Assembly (NCBI GenBank): GCA_025094145.1
Contig: JALLLS010000017.1
Coordinates: 186,001-250,000 of the forward strand
DNA length: 64,000 nucleotides
DNA from: Spinellus fusiger
Taxonomy: Eukaryota; Mucoromycota; Mucoromycetes; Mucorales; Phycomycetaceae
Direction of reading: 5' to 3'
Position numbers and translations under genes: made by a program. Below, piece after piece: positions 1,946 through 64,000 of this stretch (positions are counted from its first letter, which is position 1; each line of letters starts with the position of its first letter). The notes beneath the pieces are model-generated. The model was not told where the DNA came from. It did not search any database and saw nothing but the letters and a program-made list of their open reading frames with translations.

Positions 1946-3905
1946 ATGAGCATAACATCCATCCCAAGTCGATCACGAAAAGAAAACTGGCAAGCAGAGT
2001 TCTATAAGAATGGATATCCCTCTGAAGTCATTGTGATTGAAGATACACCCACACCACAGCCCTCCCCTTCATCACAACAACAACAACAACAACAACAACA
2101 ACATGAGGAGGAAGAGGAGAATCTTATAAGCTCCAGACCAACACATGCTAATAACATGATAACCCGTCGAGCCATTGCTGCTCAGTTGATAGAAAATAGC
2201 AACCACCTATTGGACAATACCATTCAGTACAACACTGGACCTCCTGCTGCCTCTACACGCTCCAAAAGGCCTCGAAGAGATCATGGCCAAGAAGCAGACC
2301 CATTAAATCAAAAACCAGTCGCCATAACAATAGCACCCAAAAAAAGGCGAAAAGACAACGATCCACCAGCATTGATCCATCAAGGTAAAGAGTCACAGAC
2401 ACACATACCTATAGACACTAATTCAGATGCATATATATGTATACATGTACACACGCATTTACACCTGTATTTATATGTGTATTTACATGTATATGTGTAT
2501 ATATGCATACATTGGGGTGTATGTATATGTATATGTATATGTATATGTGTATGTCTGTATGTCTGTGTCTGTCTCTCTCTCTTATTGACACCAGCACAGA
2601 AGGGTGGATAGAAACATAAGATACTAACATTACACTTAGTGAGCCAATCACTATTACTTCAGCCTATACCTGCACCTGTGCCTGTAATTCAGGTACAATG
2701 ATAAATATAAATGAATAGAGAAAGAGAGAGATAGCAATATGAGATCTTATCTTGTGGATAGCTCATTCCCTTACTTGCGCCTTTTTATAGCACCCTTTTG
2801 ACGATAAAGATGGCCACTATGTAATTAAACCCAACGAATCTCTAACGAGACGATGTAAGTCCCTTTAGATGCCTCTGCTCATGCTACTGATACACACTCT
2901 GCGAATGGCATCTAGACAAAATGATGCGCTTGCTGGGACAAGGTACTTTTGGCAAAGTTGTGGAATGCTATGATCGTGTCAAAAGAAACTTTTGTGCAGT
3001 CAAAATCATTCGTGCTATTCCAAAATACAGAGAAGCAAGTAAAGTGGAAATCAGAGTACTTAAAACACTAAAGGAACACGACCCTTTGAACCTGAAGTAA
3101 GTGATGAACTAGCCTACAGAAAAAGGGGGGGAACACTCTATTCACAGACGTACAGCAATTGTATTCACCTACTTGACTGGTTTGATTACAACAATCATAT
3201 CTGCATGGTGTTTGAACTTCTTGGACAATCCATTTTTGATTTCTTAAAGTCAAATGAGTTTCGCCCTTTTCCATCACACCACATTCAACAATTTGCAAAG
3301 CAATTGCTCACAAGTGTGTCATGTAAGTGCCTAGAATGCATCCTAGTACTAAACATCCAACTGTCAAGTTGTCCATGACCTGAAGCTGATTCATACAGAT
3401 CTTAAACCAGAGAATATTCTGTTGGTAAATCATTCAAGTAACGAAATATCAACAGACTACGGAAATGTAAGAGGCCAGGAGAATAAACAAGTACATAGAA
3501 TGACTTATTCTATTAGTGTGACCCTTCTACAACATCACAAGTGCTACAAAACACAGAGATCAGGTTAATTGATTTTGGATCTGCTACATTTGAACAAGAT
3601 TACCATTCTTCAGTGGTGTCCACACGACACTATAGAGCACCAGAGATTATATTGGGTAAGCTGTCTTGAGATGTGTTGGATGCCTTTTGTGTTGAACAGT
3701 GGATCCCACAACTAGGTATGGGCTGGTCCTATCCATGTGATATTTGGTCGATAGGCTGCATATTGGTTGAATTTTTTACTGGGGATGCCCTTTTCCAAAC
3801 ACATGAGAATCTTGAGCATTTGGCAATGATGGAAGTAGTCTTAGGAAAATTGCCATTAAAAATAATAAGAAGTGCAAGGTAAATCCATGAATGACCAACA
3901 AAAGA

Positions 3906-3953
<48 letters not shown>

Positions 3954-4093
3954 ATGTGTGCGTGTGTGCTAAGCATATTATAGTCGAGAAGCCCACAAGT
4001 TCTTTAATGGTGGGCGTCTTAAATATCCAGATACTGAGACAACTAAGCAGAGCCGAAAATATGTTCGTGCACTTCGGCCCCTGAAGGTGTGTA

Positions 4094-4124
<31 letters not shown>

Positions 4125-4365
4125 GTGTGTGTGTGAGAATATGCTCATAACTATCTGTTCATAACTGTCTTTATTCATGATATTAAACTCCCTGTGTTAG
4201 GAAATCATTGTTCCCTCTTCAAATCTCACAAGACATTTCTTGGATCTTGTTTCTAGAATGCTCGTCTATGATGCAAGTGAAAGAATATCCGCGCGTGAAG
4301 CCCTTCGACACCCCTTTTTTCAGCTTACTTTTGATGATTATGGCCGAGAGATGAAGGGAGGATAG
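1946..4365 (+). CDS. lkh1: LAMMER/CLK-family dual-specificity protein kinase
   Basis: Predicted 523-residue kinase of the CLK/LAMMER family, which phosphorylates SR-type splicing factors and other nuclear targets. Ten exons join in phase: 1946-2384, 2640-2692, 2791-2854, 2916-3096, 3156-3322, 3369-3466, 3517-3655, 3716-3878, 3984-4086, 4201-4365. The N-terminal region has a poly-Q run (about residues 44-52), an acidic patch and basic stretches. Kinase landmarks are GQGTFG (193-198), AVK lysine (about 215), HTDLKPEN (310-317, the family-type HTD), DFGSATF (353-359) and RHYRAPE. The signature helix reads EHLAMMEV (414-421), so the usual arginine of LAMMER is valine. The start is the first ATG in frame and begins MSITS. 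Exon 2 (53 nt) rests on a good CTAAC branch site and on phase. Introns 8 and 9 are filled with TG repeats. The gene converges on CDC6. Confidence 0.93.
3907..4137. repeat. TG-rich microsatellites inside two kinase introns
   Basis: A run of about 22 TG units (3907-3953) lies in the intron between kinase exons 8 and 9. A second TGTA/TG tract (4087-4137) begins exactly at the donor of the next intron. The short exon between them (3984-4086) codes for part of the CLK-specific C-lobe. Confidence 0.9.
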
Positions 4366-4649
4366 ATACATAAAGGACTGTTTCCTTAGAGATATTTATT
4401 GATATATTTATACATAATATCGAAAGATTACCCTTTGTATAGTGTTGTTTACTCTTTGTTTCATCAAATCTCAATTTCTTTCCTTTCTATTTATCGGCGG
4501 TTGCCTTTTTTTTTCTTTCAAATTTATATATGTATTGTCTTATTACTTATTTATTAGTCTCGAGAAAAGGTGATATGTTTGAATGAAATATGCTAAAGAA
4601 TATTCTCATAGTATATGTATTAGAAATAAAATAAAATAAAAGGTTGGTA

Positions 4650-6566
4650 CTATGAAGTGTCTTCCAGAATATCTTTTACCCATACATCAAGTGTACTATC
4701 ACTTCGTACCATTTGCATAATATCATCTTCAATGATATTCAACTGAATACGTCTCAGGCGTTCTTCTTTGTTATTTGTAAAGCTAATCATGCCTGTTGTT
4801 TCTATCATCGATAGTAGATCACTCAGCTCTGTCCTTGATACAGGTGATATAGAGCTGGTATGTTTTGAACACAACACTCTGTAATCTTCTCGAAACTAAA
4901 TGCACAGTAAGACTTTCTATCTTACTATATATATCTTACCTTTGCCAATGTAATTGCACTCTTGACAGATTCACGGGTTAATTTTGTCATAACCATCAAG
5001 ACACTCATTACAACCTTTTGTTGTATATTAAGCTGCTTGAGTTTTTGGAGGGTTGGACTGCCATAAACCACCTGAAGTACTTTCACAATATGGGCTACTG
5101 TTACTTTAGGCTCCATGGATGGCACCACGCCATTCACTGAAGGAGAAGTACTAGCAGCAGCTACTTTCTTCTTCCATTCTATTTCTGCCATATCAATGGC
5201 CTGACGACAGACATCCAATGCTGTACGCAAATCACCCATGGCTGCTGCTACCTTGCGTGCGCATAATTCTACAGCGACTGGTTGCATAAGAGGTAGTGGT
5301 GTATTTTCATTGGGTGTTGGAGCTGGTCCAAACGGGTTCTCTTCATTCTCAACAAGTGAATAGAGTCTATCCTTGATAATAGACGTAATTTCTTCTACCT
5401 TGTAAGGATTGAAGTTAAGCAATTGAGGCTCACCTAAATAAATAAACTAGTCAATATACTATACTTTCTCTGATATTCTCTCTTTCTCTCTCTCTTATTA
5501 CAGTTCTTTGCTCTTAATCGAGGCAAAATACGGTCTGTTAAATCAAGAGCATTGGCAATACCAATCAGTACTAAGCGAGAGGAGGGCACAGAGGCCCATT
5601 CAAATATCTTATAGAGCACATCTTGATCTTTTGTAATCAAATGGTCAATCTCATCAAGTACAACAACACTGACTCTGTATAAGTAAATCTATATACAAGC
5701 AGAACTTACTTGAGAATATTGCTCGTTCCATTCAACAGCATCTTTGCCTCCTGTACAATGTCCATGGCCTGGTTTGCCTTGTATTCATCTCCCTTTAGAT
5801 CTGACACAAGTTTTGTATAGATTCCTTTAGGTTCACCCACACTCATACAATTGATCATTACAACATTAACTTGGTGTGTCCTAAGATCCATGGTATCATC
5901 CTCCGTCACACGAATAATCTCACTCAACATGGCAGTTTTGCCTGTACCAGGAGACCCTGACACATACAAGCAGCCTGGCTTATTTTCTATAACATGCTGA
6001 TTCCAAAATGTGAGCATGGTCTCTCTTTCGTTGCCTCTGCCTATGAGCCGTGACGGGATGGCTGTGCGTCGAAAAAGAGCTTTTGCTTGTTGGCATAGTT
6101 TGTGTCCCTGGGCCGAAGTGGTTGTTGAATACAAATAAATACTGCTGGAATCATCCCTGTGGGGTGATGCCACTAGAGACAATCGGATCCGAGAAATAAA
6201 TAAAGAAAATCTTTTCTTCTTCTCTTCAATACATCAACTGCTATGGAATATCAAGCCTACCTTTTGCTAGAGCTAGTTCTCTAGTGATGTTTCGTATGGG
6301 TGTTGGTGTCACGGGTACTACAGTCTGTCGCTTTCTAGGTGTAGGTGGGGGTGAAGGTGTTCTTCTTTCATGGTCAGACTCGCTGTCAGATACAAAACTT
6401 GCAGAAGGTGTGCGATGAGCGTGAGGGTCAGATACTACTACGGTCATAATAATAGTAATAATAGTAATAATAATAATAGAAAAGACCTGATAAGGATACC
6501 AATAAGCCTACAGTAGATGGAGTCTATACCTGATAGTTTAGACCGTGAGCGAGTTCTTTTGAGCAT
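4650..6566 (-). CDS. CDC6: Replication licensing ATPase Cdc6/Cdc18
   Basis: Predicted 529-residue AAA+ ATPase that loads the MCM helicase at origins together with ORC and Cdt1. Six exons in coding order: 6566-6530, 6437-6261, 6172-5710, 5674-5502, 5433-4940, 4895-4650; the total is divisible by three. The N-terminus is basic and rich in SP/TP sites ([17 protein letters not shown]), as expected for CDK-regulated Cdc6. Walker A is GSPGTGKT (about 144-151), Walker B VVVLDEID (229-236), sensor 1 around IGIAN, and a sensor-2 type [11 protein letters not shown]-terminal winged-helix-like region ends in LEDTS. The length and the absence of a BAH domain favour Cdc6 over Orc1. The first exon codes for only 12 residues. 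The acceptor of exon 2 could instead be three bases further on, which would remove one valine. Its 3' end faces the kinase gene about 280 bp away. Confidence 0.92.
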
Positions 6567-12675: not shown

Positions 12676-14992
12676 TACAGTTCAAAGTATTCTTTATTTT
12701 TTGGTTGTAATTTGCTATTCGTGCATTGGGTATATTAGCCACCCTGTGAGATTGTTTGAAAAAAGAAAAGAAAAAGAGATATACATTGAAACACCTCAAA
12801 TACAAAAGTGAAAAATAATAATGCAAAGAGGGAGGAAACAGAAGGACAGAGAAACACAAAACCTCAAATAATGAAACATGAGAAATGATTGTAAATGAGA
12901 ATTATGAATAGACATCCAAAAGGCCATAAGGTCAGCAAGGAAACCAGGACACCAAAAAGATAACCATCATCCTGTGGCGATTCGAAATCCAACGAGGGAT
13001 ACTTAGAGCAACTCGGACAGTCCTGAGAATATATCTAGCAATTACACTAACAGCTTCTGGCTTTGCTAAACGGGTTAAGAATGGGTGGGTAGAAGAGAGA
13101 TTGGAGGAGAAGTGAGGATACAGCGTCTGTTGCTGAAGGAGTCTCTGCACTCTATGGCGGCGTTGGCGTTCCCGCTCAACACACCCATCAGCAGCCTCAA
13201 TGAGCAAGCTACCAGCTGATGGCTCTACCTTAAAGTCTCGAGTAGACGTGGCTCGATCAATGGCTTGCAGCAGTATTAACAAACTGGGCTAAAGATCTCG
13301 CCATTTAACAAAAGACTTAACCGTGCGCGGCAGAAGATTTAGACAATAGTCAATTGGATGAACGTCGTGTGGTGGTGCAGGAGCTAAGAAGAACAAGAGC
13401 GTGGAGCGTTCATGGTCAACGAATGTGCAAGTGAGAAAGTGGTCCCGATTGGCAGATGGGTGGCCACATTGGCAAGGAACTGAAGGTGTTGGTGGTAACC
13501 AAGCAATCCTCCATTTTAGTAGACGATGTCTTTCTTTGCGCATGCACGGTAGTAGAAGAATTGAATCCCAAACAGGTCTACATAGTCCACGGGCTACCGT
13601 CACCAGCAGATTCTTGCCACGTACTAGACTAGTAATTTCACTTTGAAGACGTTCAAGATAAGCTACTTTTAATGGATATTTAGGAGAGTTGTGAGCCCGT
13701 CCTATTCTTTGAGCATTTTGCCAGAGTACATTGCCACATAGCTTAATCCATCTGGCTTTACTCTGGGGTGCTTCAAGCTGCGGGACAAGGCACCAGAGGA
13801 GGGTGTCTTCAGGAAGGGTAGCTGCGCGCTCAACAAATTTGGCTTGCAGATAAAGAAAACGAGAGTATATGTTAGGGAGGGCAGCTAATTGGGCAACCTG
13901 GATCGTTCCAAACCTAGCAGTAGCAGATATAGCAAGACAAAGTCTCAGACAAGCAGACTGACAGATTTGTAGCGGGCGGATGCCTAGTCTATTGACATTA
14001 CAAATAGCCAACCCATACTCAAGAATAGGCCGAACAAAAACAGTATACGCTCTTAGGGCTGCTGTAATCCCAAAGCCATACATGTTTACACCCATTCCTC
14101 TCAGCTTTTGCATTACTGCAATTGCCTTGACTTGTGAGTGTGAGAAAAGTGCGTCTTGGTTAATACCTTGACGTGAAAAGGGGATACCAAGGTACTTGAA
14201 AGTATCACAGGTTGGAAGCTTGTTGCCATAGAGGTAAAACGGCACATTGGCCGGGGCATTGAGTACTTCACATTTGGAGGGACTCCATTTGTAACCAAGG
14301 AGGGTCGAGTGAATTTTGGCAAGTGCCAGCATTCGATGTATATCTTCTGGGCAGCCCATAAGAGCCACATCATCAGCATACAACAAACAATTCACAGGAG
14401 CCCAAGTAACAGTGACATGAGATGGACTGTAAGAGGAATCTGACGACTCAGAAGAGTCATCCGAAACTGTAGAAGTAGGAAAAGGATTGTGAAGGGAATT
14501 CTGTAACTCGTCAAGCAATGCGTGAACAGTTGCCTGTGGGGAAGCAAAAGAGAAAGGATTTCGAGCACAGAGATTAATGGACCGTCCCATGATAGGTGGG
14601 TGCATACCAACCAGTATTGGGGATACCGAAGCAAACCTCAAGAAACGTGGAAGAGTATCAATGAAAATAGAATAAAGGAATGGAGAAAGAATACTACCCT
14701 GTAAGACTCCTCGCTTAGGTAAAATGTCCCGGGATGCTACATTTTTCAGAATCACATTCACCACAATGTCATCAAACAAATTCTGTAGTAGCAAGAGCAA
14801 CGGCTGAGACACAAAGGGCATCAGCGACTCCCATATGACAGAGCGTTCCACACTATCATATGCAGCTTTAATATCTAGGAAGACGACGACTGGAGGTTTT
14901 GGATCTTGCTCTCCTGATCCTTGGGCAGCGTACAACCCCATAAGTTCGTGGAGACAGAGGGCCTGGTCTAGAGTTCCACGAGTGTGGCTGTA
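12676..14992 (-). mobile_element. 5'-truncated LINE-type retrotransposon (copy A)
   Basis: It contains the second half of a reverse transcriptase ORF, a roughly 600-bp 3' UTR, and a 3' terminus ending (minus strand) in TACTTTGAACTGTA. The same terminus occurs at 37902 and 63343. The 5' side is cut off in the middle of the RT domain, exactly where a Tc1-type element begins (14991). No RT sequence can be found beyond that element, so the 5' part was never copied or was later deleted. Confidence 0.88.
13289..14990 (-). pseudogene. Non-LTR reverse transcriptase, 5'-truncated
   Basis: An open frame of about 567 codons enters from the Tc1 junction and runs to a stop at 13289. It begins YSHTRGTLDQALCLHELM, which is inside the RT fingers/palm. 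Then come VVFLDIKAAYDSVERSVIW (first catalytic Asp), LPKRGVLQGSILSPFLYS and LLYADDVALM (catalytic YADD). The thumb follows, and a C-terminal part with CQCGHPSANRDHFLTC looks like the terminal zinc-knuckle of such elements. No stop interrupts this half, so the insertion is fairly young, but it lacks the endonuclease and the N-terminal RT motifs and cannot be active alone. Confidence 0.85.
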
Positions 14993-15921
14993 CAGTGGGG
15001 TGACAAAAAAAATGGCATTTTTTTAGAGATCCGATATATTTCATATCTTACATAAGAGACACTTGTAGCAGCTTTCTTCCTTTCTTCTTAATAAAAGTAT
15101 ATTCATATTTAATTTAAAATGCAGAAACTTAACATTGTTAATTTTCGACAAGCAAATATGAAAGTAAAGAAAATAGCTGAAAGAACTAGAGTAAAGCTGC
15201 GAACAATCTACAATGTTCTAAATCAACAAAAGACAAGAGGAACTACCAAACGCCAAGGAGGTTCGGGAAGACTCAAAATATTCAATGAAAGAGGAATAAG
15301 ATACCTTTTGAACTTTGTTGGCAAGAATAAACGAAAGATTATTGATTTAGTTAAAAAAGTCTATGAAGAGTCATTACTACGTTTCTGGGGTCTAGAGTGC
15401 CACTTGATATTGATGGAAGATGGAGCACCCACTCACAAAAGTATTGTAGCAAGTGATTGGAAAAGGGAGATAGGAATTGATAGTTTGGAGTGGCCTGCTC
15501 AATCACCCGATCTGAACCCCATTGAGAACCTTTGGATGCAGATAAAAGATAAGATCCAGGAGAGATGCAATGGTACTGTCAAGACAGACAAGTTCAAAAC
15601 TATTATACAAGAAGCCTGGGATTCCTTTGAGCCAAAAAAATGGAATTCTTTGATTGAGACAATGCCAGCACGGATGCAAAAAGTCATCAAGAACAAGGGT
15701 GGGAGTACCCATTATTAAAGCTACATTTGTAGTAGTTTTTTATAAGTAAAATTAAAAATAAATTAGATATAAGTATTTTAGAGCCTTTCTTTAAACATAA
15801 TATGAGCTTTATTAAAGTAGAAAATACGTTTTATTTCTCTTGATACAAGAAAAACACTATATTGATAATATGAAATCTATCAAATTTTTCAAAATTGCCA
15901 ATTTTTTGTTACCCCACTGTA
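14991..15921 (+). mobile_element. Internally deleted Tc1-like transposon (copy 1)
   Basis: The element is about 930 bp. The left end TACAGTGGGGTGACAAAA and the reverse complement of the right end TACAGTGGGGTAACAAAA match, and the similarity continues to TTTCATAT about 60 bp in. TA is at both borders. It carries one ORF (15119-15718) for a shortened transposase. Its left border coincides with the broken 5' side of the LINE RT. A second copy starts near 63478. Confidence 0.9.
15119..15718 (+). CDS. Shortened Tc1-like transposase lacking the first catalytic Asp
   Basis: 199 residues against about 340 for a normal Tc1 transposase. The N-terminal HTH (IAERTRVKLRTIYNVLNQQ, about residues 20-38) and the start of the second DNA-binding part are present. 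The frame then jumps to VKKVYEESLLRFWGLECHLI, so the segment with the first catalytic aspartate is missing. The second D (ILMEDGAPTH) and the E (DLNPIENLW) are present with 34 residues between them (DD34E type). The frame is open from ATG to stop. Without the first D it should not catalyse transposition but might still bind the inverted repeats; that is inference. Confidence 0.85.
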   Translation: MQKLNIVNFRQANMKVKKIAERTRVKLRTIYNVLNQQKTRGTTKRQGGSGRLKIFNERGIRYLLNFVGKNKRKIIDLVKKVYEESLLRFWGLECHLILMEDGAPTHKSIVASDWKREIGIDSLEWPAQSPDLNPIENLWMQIKDKIQERCNGTVKTDKFKTIIQEAWDSFEPKKWNSLIETMPARMQKVIKNKGGSTHY

Positions 15922-61620: not shown

Positions 61621-62943
61621 TTAAGGAAAAATTCCGAGTTTTCTCATTATTCTGTAAAAATTACGTCTAGAAACTCGACTCGTCATACTCATGTGTAATT
61701 CCTCCAATGTCTGGGATGGATTGCGATTCCAATTGCGGGTTATCTCCAACTCGTCTTGCTCGGTAATTAAAGGATGCCTTTCTAAATTCTTCATGAGGTT
61801 GGGAGACTGTGTTTCTTTAAATGCCTTCAAGACTGCAGAGACAGATGCCTGGCTAGTACCAGCTATGGCAGCAACCTTATTTATGGTAAGGCCATTGACA
61901 TTACGTTCATGCAAGATTGTTTTGCGCATGTCTTCATCCACAGGCTTCTTTTTGCTGAACTTTTCACAGGTATCCCCAGTACTAATTGCATGTTCCTTCA
62001 AGACTCTTCTAACAGTTGATGGACTAGTGCCAATCATGGTAGCAATTTCTTTTTGGCTGAGACCATTGATATTACGCTCATGTACAATAGTCTTACGATC
62101 GCTTTCATCAATAGTCTTCATTTTTCTGCGAGACCTATTGTTATATTCACTATTAATATTCTGCTCGCTCAAGACTCTGGAAACAATTGTTTGACTAGTG
62201 CCAACTACAGTAGCAATCTTTTTTTGACCAAGGCCATTGATATTGTGTTCATGTAAAATGACTTTACGCATTATTTCAGGGACAACTTTGTTTTTGTTGC
62301 AAGCTTCACATGTACTCTCATTGCTATGTGCGTGTTCATTCAAAATTCTGGAAACACTTGCTCGGCTAATACCAACGAGAGTAGCAATCTCTTTTTGCAT
62401 GAGACCATTGGCTGTGTGCTCATGCAGGATCCTGTTGCGCATGTCTTCAGCGATGGGTTTCCTTTTGTTACAGGTATCACAATCATCTCCACTAAGACGC
62501 GTATGTTCATTCAATATTCTAGAAACAGTCGAGTTGCTAGTACCAGCTATAACAGCAATCTCTTTTTGCATGAGGCCATTGACTTTGTGTTCATGCAGTA
62601 TGATTCTGCGCATCTTATCAGCAACACGTTTCTTTTCTTCACAGACCTTGCGAGGCTTTTTAGTAAAAAGTAAATTCTCCCTCAAGATTTTTCTAATAGT
62701 CTCTGGCCGAGTGCCGATCATAGTAGCAATCTTTCTTTGGCTAAGGTCATTGACTTTGTGCTCATGAACAATAGTTTTACGTTCGTTTTCATCAATAACT
62801 CTTCTTTTTCTTTTACGAGATTGAGTGTTTGTTTTAGTTTTAGGAGTTTGAACGGTGGTGTTTGTTTCTTCTTTGATGTTTATTGGCTCAGTTGCAGATA
62901 TTTGTTCCATGATGAATGATTGTTCGGTGGGTAAAGTAAACAT
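61621..62943 (-). CDS. Six-fold tandem helix-turn-helix protein, Tc1-transposase-like, without DDE domain
   Basis: Single-exon frame of 440 residues. After a leader with a basic NLS-like SRKRKRR (42-48) come six homologous units of exactly 57 residues; the HE of each unit stands at 60, 117, 174, 231, 288 and 345. The unit consensus is R--I-HEH--NGL-QK-IA---GTS--TV-R-L-EH, a trihelical HTH like the first DNA-binding domain of Tc1/mariner and pogo-type transposases. The linkers carry CxxC (C155/C158, C212/C215) or one of the two cysteines (C101, C326) at the same phase. The end (394-440: EQDELEITRNWNRNPSQTLE, RVSRRNFYRIMRKLGIFP) looks like the second HTH of a Tc1 transposase. The frame stops just where a DDE domain would begin, and no such sequence follows. 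It may be a domesticated multi-site DNA binder or a transposon regulator; both are inference. It could also be a remnant of an unusual element. Confidence 0.85.
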   Translation of the reverse strand: MFTLPTEQSFIMEQISATEPINIKEETNTTVQTPKTKTNTQSRKRKRRVIDENERKTIVHEHKVNDLSQRKIATMIGTRPETIRKILRENLLFTKKPRKVCEEKKRVADKMRRIILHEHKVNGLMQKEIAVIAGTSNSTVSRILNEHTRLSGDDCDTCNKRKPIAEDMRNRILHEHTANGLMQKEIATLVGISRASVSRILNEHAHSNESTCEACNKNKVVPEIMRKVILHEHNINGLGQKKIATVVGTSQTIVSRVLSEQNINSEYNNRSRRKMKTIDESDRKTIVHERNINGLSQKEIATMIGTSPSTVRRVLKEHAISTGDTCEKFSKKKPVDEDMRKTILHERNVNGLTINKVAAIAGTSQASVSAVLKAFKETQSPNLMKNLERHPLITEQDELEITRNWNRNPSQTLEELHMSMTSRVSRRNFYRIMRKLGIFP

Positions 62944-63327: not shown

Positions 63328-63481
63328 TTTGTCCAATGTACAGTTCAAAGTATTTTATTTTTATTTTTGGGTGTTGGTTGCTATTCGCACATTGGGCATG
63401 TTAGCCACCCTATGAGAACTTTTGAAAAATAAGAATAAACATAGAAACACCTCAAATACAAAAGTGTTTGTCCAATGTACA
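63328..63481 (-). mobile_element. Short LINE 3'-end insertion with target-site duplication (copy C)
   Basis: A 124-bp piece of the LINE 3' terminus (63343-63466), closely matching 37906-38030, is flanked by the direct repeat TTTGTCCAATGTACA (63328-63342 and 63467-63481). The last four bases (TACA) can also belong to the LINE end, so the duplication is 11-15 bp. This is the signature of a severely 5'-truncated target-primed insertion. Its right flank is the left inverted repeat of the Tc1-like copy that follows. Confidence 0.9.
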
Positions 63482-64000
63482 CTGAGGAAACAAAATAATT
63501 GGCATTTTATTTATTTATAGAAGTCCGATAAATTTCATATCTTACATGAGACACCTGTTGCAGTTTTCTTTCTTTCTTCTTAATAAAAGTATATCCATAT
63601 TTAATTTATAATTCAACCAACAGATGAGCAGAAATTTACCATTGTTAATTTTCGACAAGCAAACATGAAAGTAAAGTAAATAGCTGAAAGAACTGAAGTA
63701 AAGCTGCGAACAATCTACAATGTTCTAAATCAATAAAAGACAAGAGGAACTACCAAACGCCAAGGAGGTTCGGGAAAACCCAAAATATTCAATGAAAGAG
63801 GAATAAGACACCTTTTGAACGTTATTAGCAAGAATAAACGAAATATTATTGATTCAGTTAAAAAAGTCTATGAAGAATCATTACTACGTTTCTGTGGTCT
63901 AGAGTGCCGCTTGATATTGATGGAAGATGGAGCACCCACTCACAAAAGTATTGTAGCAAGTGATTGGAAAAGAGAGATAGAAATTGATGGTTTGGAGTGG
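63478..64000 (+). mobile_element. Internally deleted Tc1-like transposon (copy 2), cut by window end
   Basis: It matches 14991-15515 of copy 1 base by base with scattered changes: the left end TACACTGAGGAAACAAAAT, TTTCATATCTTACAT, then the transposase frame from GAGCAGAAATTTACCATTG. The same internal deletion (VKKVYEESLLRF joined to GLECRLILMEDG) is present. In-frame stops (for example in GTAAAGTAAATAG and AATCAATAAAAG) make this copy a pseudogene. The right end lies beyond 64000. Confidence 0.88.

Follow-up and report, generated by a model that had tools for sequence, protein, structure and literature searches.

The poly-HTH gene of the window

A gene encoding a tandem array of helix-turn-helix (HTH) units lies close to one end of the window, i.e., the whole stretch of 64,000 nucleotides of Spinellus fusiger DNA that was analysed. 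Its features, together with a terminal-repeat-like sequence upstream of it, are listed below with the evidence in brackets.

61621..62943, minus strand: whole poly-HTH gene, 440 codons and a stop, no intron needed (open frame; paralogues)
62806..62943, minus strand: leader of 46 residues, rich in Ser, Thr and basic residues (frame reading; comparison with paralogues)
62635..62805, minus strand: HTH unit 1, recognition residues P E R K (unit alignment)
62464..62634, minus strand: HTH unit 2, recognition residues N S S R (unit alignment)
62293..62463, minus strand: HTH unit 3, recognition residues R A S R (unit alignment)
62122..62292, minus strand: HTH unit 4, recognition residues Q T S R (unit alignment)
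61951..62121, minus strand: HTH unit 5, recognition residues P S R R (unit alignment; unit model)
61780..61950, minus strand: HTH unit 6, recognition residues Q A S A, by its place the first HTH domain (HTH1) of Tc1 (unit alignment; Tc1 match)
61627..61791, minus strand: HTH2-like tail, homologous to the second HTH domain (HTH2) of Tc1, followed by one residue and the stop (24/55 identical)
About 63337..63466, no strand assigned: terminal-repeat-like sequence upstream of the gene, similar to small Tc1-type elements beside paralogues (sequence similarity)

The preliminary description, made from the letters of the window, had reported an uninterrupted frame of 440 codons with six HTH units and a C-terminus resembling Tc1 HTH2. 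This frame is indeed present and open, and its six units and tail are borne out by an exact period and by homology. The spacing is exactly 57 aa in all five intervals, with zero indels, and 9 of the 57 columns are invariant across the six units. Chance is excluded as the source of the array because of this exact period and the existence of paralogues, whose leaders (MPTSPTER, MSISFTEE) resemble the start of the leader in the window (MFTLPTEQ). When neutral change at 10% of sites was simulated, the frame was still open in only 1 of 400 simulations. The tail can be aligned without gaps to HTH2 in one of the genome's own Tc1 copies (24 of 55 residues identical, 44%; E 6e-18), and the frame stops one residue past it, where the Tc1 protein continues. 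Unit 6 shares 18 of 46 residues with HTH1 from a different Tc1 copy. When the protein is compared with Pfam, the best 25 of 69 families are mostly HTH families and include no DDE family. The architecture is thus (HTH1)6-HTH2 without a catalytic domain. Structure prediction of the units, which the preliminary description had proposed as a check, gives a three-helix fold with a mean pLDDT of 84.4 in a profile model built from the six window units only.

According to a domain scan, the other genes of the window are eukaryotic (TAF4, ORC/Cdc6-type domains, PPR). A frame of 550 aa at 13289-14941 on the minus strand matches the reverse transcriptase family RVT_1 (E 3.5e-13). Pieces of another Tc1-type element are found on the plus strand at 15119-15718 and at about 63620-64000 (DDE_3, E 4.4e-11). 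The latter piece lies directly upstream of the array gene and is approximately 90% identical to the former.

A large gene family

The picture of a lone protein needs correction: the gene is one member of a large family, broken members included. At least 118 scored matches to the gene were found in its own assembly (38.08 Mb, 197 contigs), the best non-self match of the protein being 48% identical (E 6e-85), and a second query gave 74 genome matches at E <= 1e-20. After hand merging, the family comprises 51 multi-unit loci and 10 loci with one or two units. From the 51-54 multi-unit loci, 40 were read, holding 41 genes; the best-scoring loci were taken first, which biases the share of intact genes upward. 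A single frame runs from Met through the last unit into the tail in 29 of the 41 genes (some of these tails being short or judged by eye), and a stricter scripted criterion accepts 22 of 41. Eight of the 40 loci are split or cut (L015, L018, L024, L042, L045, L050, L051, L052). In L016, L025, L039 and L043, no Met precedes unit 1 in frame, L039 lying at a contig end, and in L021, L022, L028, L044 and L047 the homology of the tail continues beyond a stop.

The number of units varies from 3 to 10 per main frame in the first 20 loci, mostly 57 aa apart, and from two to ten across all frames read. Two types of tail occur in the family, HTH2-like and acidic. Both are present in L020 (C140:11700-20300), where two array genes with a near-identical leader stand head to head (2785-3813, minus strand; 4006-5619, plus strand), one with an acidic and the other with an HTH2-like tail. 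The five-unit array of L033 (225-1574, minus strand) has a tail with short acidic repeats of its own (ERESMMI...), unlike both usual tails. About ten loci apparently combine one or two units with an acidic tail, e.g., C153:134280, C116:49128, C116:73046, C112:146473, C123:9827 and C37:39453; these may be either the starts or the remnants of arrays.

The family is scattered over many contigs. Two of these, chosen after counting, hold more array places of an earlier list of 54 than expected: contig C110 has 10 (expected 1.66, p 5e-6) and contig C137 has 5 (expected 0.41, p 6e-5).

Origin from a Tc1-type transposase

Tc1-type sequences, which are candidate targets of the arrays, abound in this genome, with 1390 and 1544 candidate places at first look. 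Of 150 listed HTH stretches from Tc1 copies, each about 122 codons long, 64 hold a stop by hand count. When ten array members were scanned, PF25787 (Sleeping Beauty HTH) matched 9 of them, the best transposase-type Pfam matches of the arrays were Tc1/Sleeping Beauty and ISL3, and DDE was absent among the 25 families shared most widely (of 127). No DDE domain was seen in the arrays of the 40 loci read, nor was an in-frame fusion of array and DDE found with one working DDE query in 20 loci with long flanks. A DDE piece on the same strand lies about 540 bp past the cut array of L018.

In a tree, all 191 array units cluster apart from 40 Tc1 HTH1 sequences (support 0.743). Terminal units have a higher mean identity to Tc1 HTH1 than the other units (0.383 vs 0.329), which fits the addition of units upstream of an ancestral HTH1-HTH2. 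That the arrays arose by amplification of a Tc1 HTH1, with loss of the catalytic domain, is therefore a well-supported reading of these comparisons. The preliminary description had put forward the same origin, and the HTH2 tail, the likeness of unit 6 to HTH1 and the Sleeping Beauty HTH in 9 of 10 members all agree with it. Among the observations that it had named as speaking against it are a transposase joining such an array to a DDE domain in close relatives and a dN/dS near 1. The 20 loci with long flanks in this genome hold no such fusion, and the background of the units has a ratio of 0.49-0.65 in paralogue comparisons.

Recognition helices of the units

The six-unit profile aligns to the headpiece of the lac repressor (1lcc), profile positions 25-56 matching residues 8-39 at equal length (E 0.0085). 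As a profile position equals the unit column plus one, columns 33, 34, 37 and 38 correspond to LacI residues 17, 18, 21 and 22. In the available part of the LacI source, the specificity residues correspond to 17, 18 and 22 (the equivalence of numbering is our own reading), with which columns 33, 34 and 38 align. Helix 3 spans profile positions 34-48 in the unit model, so that the four variable residues are helix positions 1, 2, 5 and 6. In a whole-chain model of low confidence, the six recognition helices begin at residues 80, 137, 194, 251, 308 and 365, each of which is exactly the first variable position. By analogy with LacI, the variable residues of helix 3 are putative base contacts.

To compare rates of change, units were brought into one gap-free register of 47 columns. 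From 205 matches, 10 were dropped for edge or indel problems and 4 single-unit frames were set aside, leaving 191 units from 45 frames; removal of 8 duplicates gave 183, and with the 38 terminal units analysed apart, 145 distinct non-terminal units remained. As a control, 38 of the 40 Tc1 copies entered the rate tests, two being left out (duplicate, or stop or unread codon). In a tree built without columns 33, 34, 37 and 38, these columns rank 1, 2, 4 and 5 in nonsynonymous rate; rank 3 goes to column 2, which adjoins the linker. For the 145 units, their pooled omega is 1.41 (386 nonsynonymous and 78 synonymous changes, p 0.0023), and that of the other columns 3-43 is 0.49. With all 183 units, the values are 1.32 (p 0.0042) vs 0.48. 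Among the 38 Tc1 HTH1 sequences, they are 0.42 and 0.33. Taken singly, the four columns reach p values of 0.016-0.017 at best.

Pairwise estimates came from pairs with a background pS < 0.3 and were resampled by gene. Omega is 1.43 [0.98-1.90] for the four columns, an interval that touches 1, and 1.81 [1.16-2.49] for columns 33, 34 and 38. Six other variable surface columns have 0.89 [0.67-1.22], the in-between columns 35, 36, 39 and 40 have 0.40 [0.21-0.75], and the remainder of the unit has 0.65 [0.59-0.75]. The Tc1 HTH1 values are 0.31 [0.19-0.56] at the four columns and 0.22 [0.11-0.49] at columns 33, 34 and 38. In the closest pairs (background pS < 0.1), omega is 1.44 for the background and 1.42 for the recognition columns, the high background value probably arising because these pairs are picked for low pS. 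Terminal units have no clear excess at the recognition columns (omega 0.61-1.47 over five bins). Column 33 is fast in Tc1 as well (2.01 times the synonymous rate), and columns 2 and 44, outside the recognition helix, are likewise variable.

The 191 units hold 130 types of recognition quadruplet, and other quadruplets of surface columns come close to this diversity, with 108 and 120 types. Residue use differs by position: column 38 is K, R or N in 144 of 191 units and acidic in 2, and column 37 is S (88 units), G (38) or Y (21) in most units and never K, D or E. Such position-specific use fits contact roles better than free drift. Altogether, the pattern of substitution shows constraint on the unit scaffold and moderately supports diversifying selection on the recognition helices. 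Tract exchange between units can raise rates as well, which counts against a reading by selection.

Turnover of the arrays

Comparisons between loci point to several kinds of change. L014 and L022 share a stretch of 302 bp at the 5' end at 99.0% identity. They have eight and four units, respectively, with zero recognition quadruplets in common, and their units are at least 8.5-11.6% apart outside the recognition codons. L044 and L028 differ by one unit and are 99.4% identical across 846 bp; this pair and the near-identical pair L034/L048 may represent alleles or recent copies. Within genes, nine near-identical pairs of units were found, and the quadruplet is common to both units in 9 of 9, which indicates recent unit duplication.

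L043 and L049 are 94.6% identical over 1398 bp. Within their units, 12 of 48 recognition nucleotides differ, vs 44 of 516 elsewhere; the codon changes are 8 nonsynonymous and 0 synonymous at recognition positions, and 25 and 9 elsewhere. A short tract including the recognition helix seems to have been exchanged between units 2 and 4 in this pair. As read from these alignments, the arrays turn over by the gain and loss of units, by the exchange of tracts and by point change together.

Mobile elements beside the array genes

A 106-bp sequence with TACAGTCC tips resembles a Tc1-type terminal repeat and has 40 scored matches in the genome. No more than 1.5 kb separates 25 of these from 14 of the 61 array loci, and 16 lie within 500 bp, at 12 array loci; array loci with such margins make up 0.6% of the genome. 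By comparison, a different Tc1 family has 1 of 150 matches to its HTH part equally near. The 40 matches are not independent, because an array locus supplied the query and the sequence is copied whenever such a locus is duplicated. Downstream of the array in L015, a pair of the repeats bounds an element of 0.73 kb (4877-5609, oriented). The repeat tips point at the gene on both sides in L015, and they face the gene in L017 too. Judged by their ends, the 0.7-0.8-kb elements with TACAGTCC... tips beside array genes are possibly non-autonomous Tc1-type elements and candidate targets of the arrays. In general, the small Tc1-type elements may be neighbours, vehicles or targets of the array genes.

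No inverted repeat is common to all of the 20 loci tested, and flank homology between loci ends at differing points. At several loci, the flank on the upstream side matches the downstream one in inverted orientation. In L021 (C165:305900-312600), a perfect inverted repeat of 1780 bp flanks a four-unit array gene and is either a real palindrome or an assembly artefact. Pairs of opposite-strand matches with equal scores are also frequent on single contigs (e.g., C182:1454-2218 and 14476-15240; also C150, C24, C6 and C94), which suggests long palindromes in the genome or in its assembly.

Possible function of the family

That the family consists of transposase-derived, multivalent DNA-binding arrays is, taken alone, highly probable. 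The full statement, i.e., that the nuclear genes of this large family encode multivalent proteins which bind DNA sequence-specifically, with diversifying specificity and with transposons as their likeliest targets, is tentative and has a little less than an even chance of holding. Each unit would place its helix 3 into the major groove, where helix residues 1, 2, 5 and 6 would select bases, and a single protein could read either several sites in an array or one long site composed of subsites, one per unit. Changing targets would favour new specificities, the likeliest being transposon ends or bodies, and a transposon might be blocked either because the protein occupies its DNA or because the tail recruits a silencing partner. 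The working mode would resemble that of the KRAB zinc-finger repertoire, but with the transposon's own targeting module as its source. A more specific form of this reading, which is possible and rather doubtful, sees in the family a further natural, modular array for reading DNA, a eukaryotic counterpart of both KRAB zinc fingers and TAL effectors that is derived from a transposase. Each 57-aa unit would then add a short subsite set by its four helix-3 residues, and new arrays would be generated by unit duplication, helix exchange and point change, tracking transposons such as the adjoining Tc1-type elements.

Other explanations have to be weighed against this one. The array genes could be mobile or linked to mobile elements, spread by Tc1-type elements (e.g., by hitch-hiking with them, or enclosed by two small ones in a composite) and serving them as repressor, copy-number control or targeting factor. 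The enrichment of terminal-repeat matches near array loci (25/40, at 14/61 loci, vs 1/150 for the other Tc1 family), the inverted flank-to-flank matches at several loci, the position of L021 between its 1780-bp repeats and the dispersal over many contigs all suit this view. It is nevertheless unlikely: the matches lack independence, the 20 loci tested have no repeat in common, and the recognition helices of the arrays diversify, whereas those of Tc1 stay constrained. Moreover, as the tips face the gene in L015 and L017, it is not simply enclosed by a single element; the tips appear to belong to separate elements of 0.7-0.8 kb beside it. That the genes are truncated, dying copies of a transposase is very improbable. 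The HTH2 tail and the Tc1-type HTH would be expected of such copies, as would the 8 of 40 loci that are split or cut and the five more with a stop inside the tail, but no frame joins array and DDE in 20 loci, DDE is absent among the 25 Pfam families that ten members share most widely, the scaffold is constrained, the units stand apart from Tc1 HTH1 (191 vs 40 sequences, support 0.743) and a second type of tail is common to many members.

Two further explanations are improbable to the same degree. In one, constraint is relaxed: the recognition helices of redundant units drift while the fold is kept, and the protein binds loosely or through few of its units. The four-column omega, near 1 within its error (0.98-1.90), the variability of other surface columns and the terminal units without excess are compatible with such drift. 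Columns 33, 34 and 38, with an interval above 1 (1.16-2.49), the pooled tree test (p 0.0023) and the position-specific residues (K/R/N in 144/191 units at column 38; no K, D or E at column 37) argue against it. In the other, the proteins are host transcription factors, or factors of self/non-self recognition, with fast-changing promoter targets and unrelated to transposon control. The acidic tails of many members could be activation domains, and the clusters on C110 and C137 resemble expanding families of regulators; on the other hand, nothing links the genes to host promoters, and Tc1 pieces occur in the neighbourhood of several loci. A fixed chromosomal role is less likely as well, because the specificity positions change fast. 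The arrays probably target transposons.

Comparison with known systems

Searching 5.8 billion proteins revealed no regular relatives elsewhere; the window protein itself was not returned, so this collection may not cover the organism. Two weak matches and three irregular multi-HTH proteins, one of the latter attributed by a source to a Woesearchaeota archaeon, were rejected as relatives, having neither a 57-aa period nor a Tc1 HTH2. Tandem HTH proteins as such are known, e.g., Myb, and Pipsqueak itself has tandem HTH repeats. The preliminary description therefore went too far in stating that no family with this architecture had been described, as tandem HTH domains are known in Pipsqueak, Myb and Cbp1/CENP-B. 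What stands is that no described family with the present set of features was found in the literature, which was mostly open-access and judged largely by title and the start of the abstract. Modular DNA-binding arrays and domesticated transposase domains are already known in kind. The size of the family, the hypervariable recognition helices, the acidic type of tail and the turnover of the arrays go beyond the preliminary description.

With the DNA-binding region of Tc1/mariner transposases (Tc3, Sleeping Beauty), the family shares a Tc1-type HTH1 and HTH2. In the arrays, however, HTH1 is repeated two to ten times, the catalytic domain is missing, the recognition helices diversify and some members end in an acidic tail instead of HTH2. 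Similarly to Pipsqueak, the arrays have tandem HTH units derived from a transposase. The HTH-Psq of the Pipsqueak family is described as pogo-derived in the available part of its source (PMC10027918), whereas the arrays are of Tc1 type, and a hypervariable recognition helix is unreported there for Pipsqueak. A Psq/pogo-type HTH is not among the 25 Pfam families listed (of 69 for the window protein, of 127 for ten members). Cbp1/CENP-B proteins are fungal and transposase-derived, with N-terminal tandem HTH domains; as far as the available part of the source goes, they keep the DDE domain and a single tandem HTH pair and have few genes per genome, in contrast to the DDE-less arrays (PMC10085805). 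LacI-family HTH domains have the same frame of the recognition helix, and many array units contain T-V-S-R. The arrays are eukaryotic, tandem and without the ligand-binding core domain, the likeness to LacI being confined to the HTH.

TAL effectors consist of head-to-tail units of a fixed length of 34 aa with two variable residues. The array units are also head-to-tail, fixed in length and hypervariable at putative base-reading residues, but the fold is unrelated, with 57-aa units of three helices, and any code in the arrays is hypothetical. The units constitute a natural library, with 130 recognition quadruplets in 191 units on a near-constant scaffold. Such a library would allow direct reading of a recognition code, and the arrays could perhaps be developed into programmable modules for binding DNA.

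KRAB zinc-finger proteins, a likely defence of animals against transposons that acts through a silencing partner, and PRDM9 exemplify large families with variable tandem units that are gained and lost, and with the fastest change at base-contact residues. The array family is likewise large and variable in unit number, and changes fastest at presumed base-contact residues, the contact role being taken from LacI. Its units are HTH rather than C2H2, no KRAB or SET domain was seen, and its targeting of transposons is deduced rather than observed. To our knowledge, zinc-finger families aside, no eukaryotic lineage has a repertoire of proteins that diversify fast and are directed at DNA sequences. 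If the family does bind transposons, this genome would have turned the targeting domain of the transposons themselves into such a repertoire.
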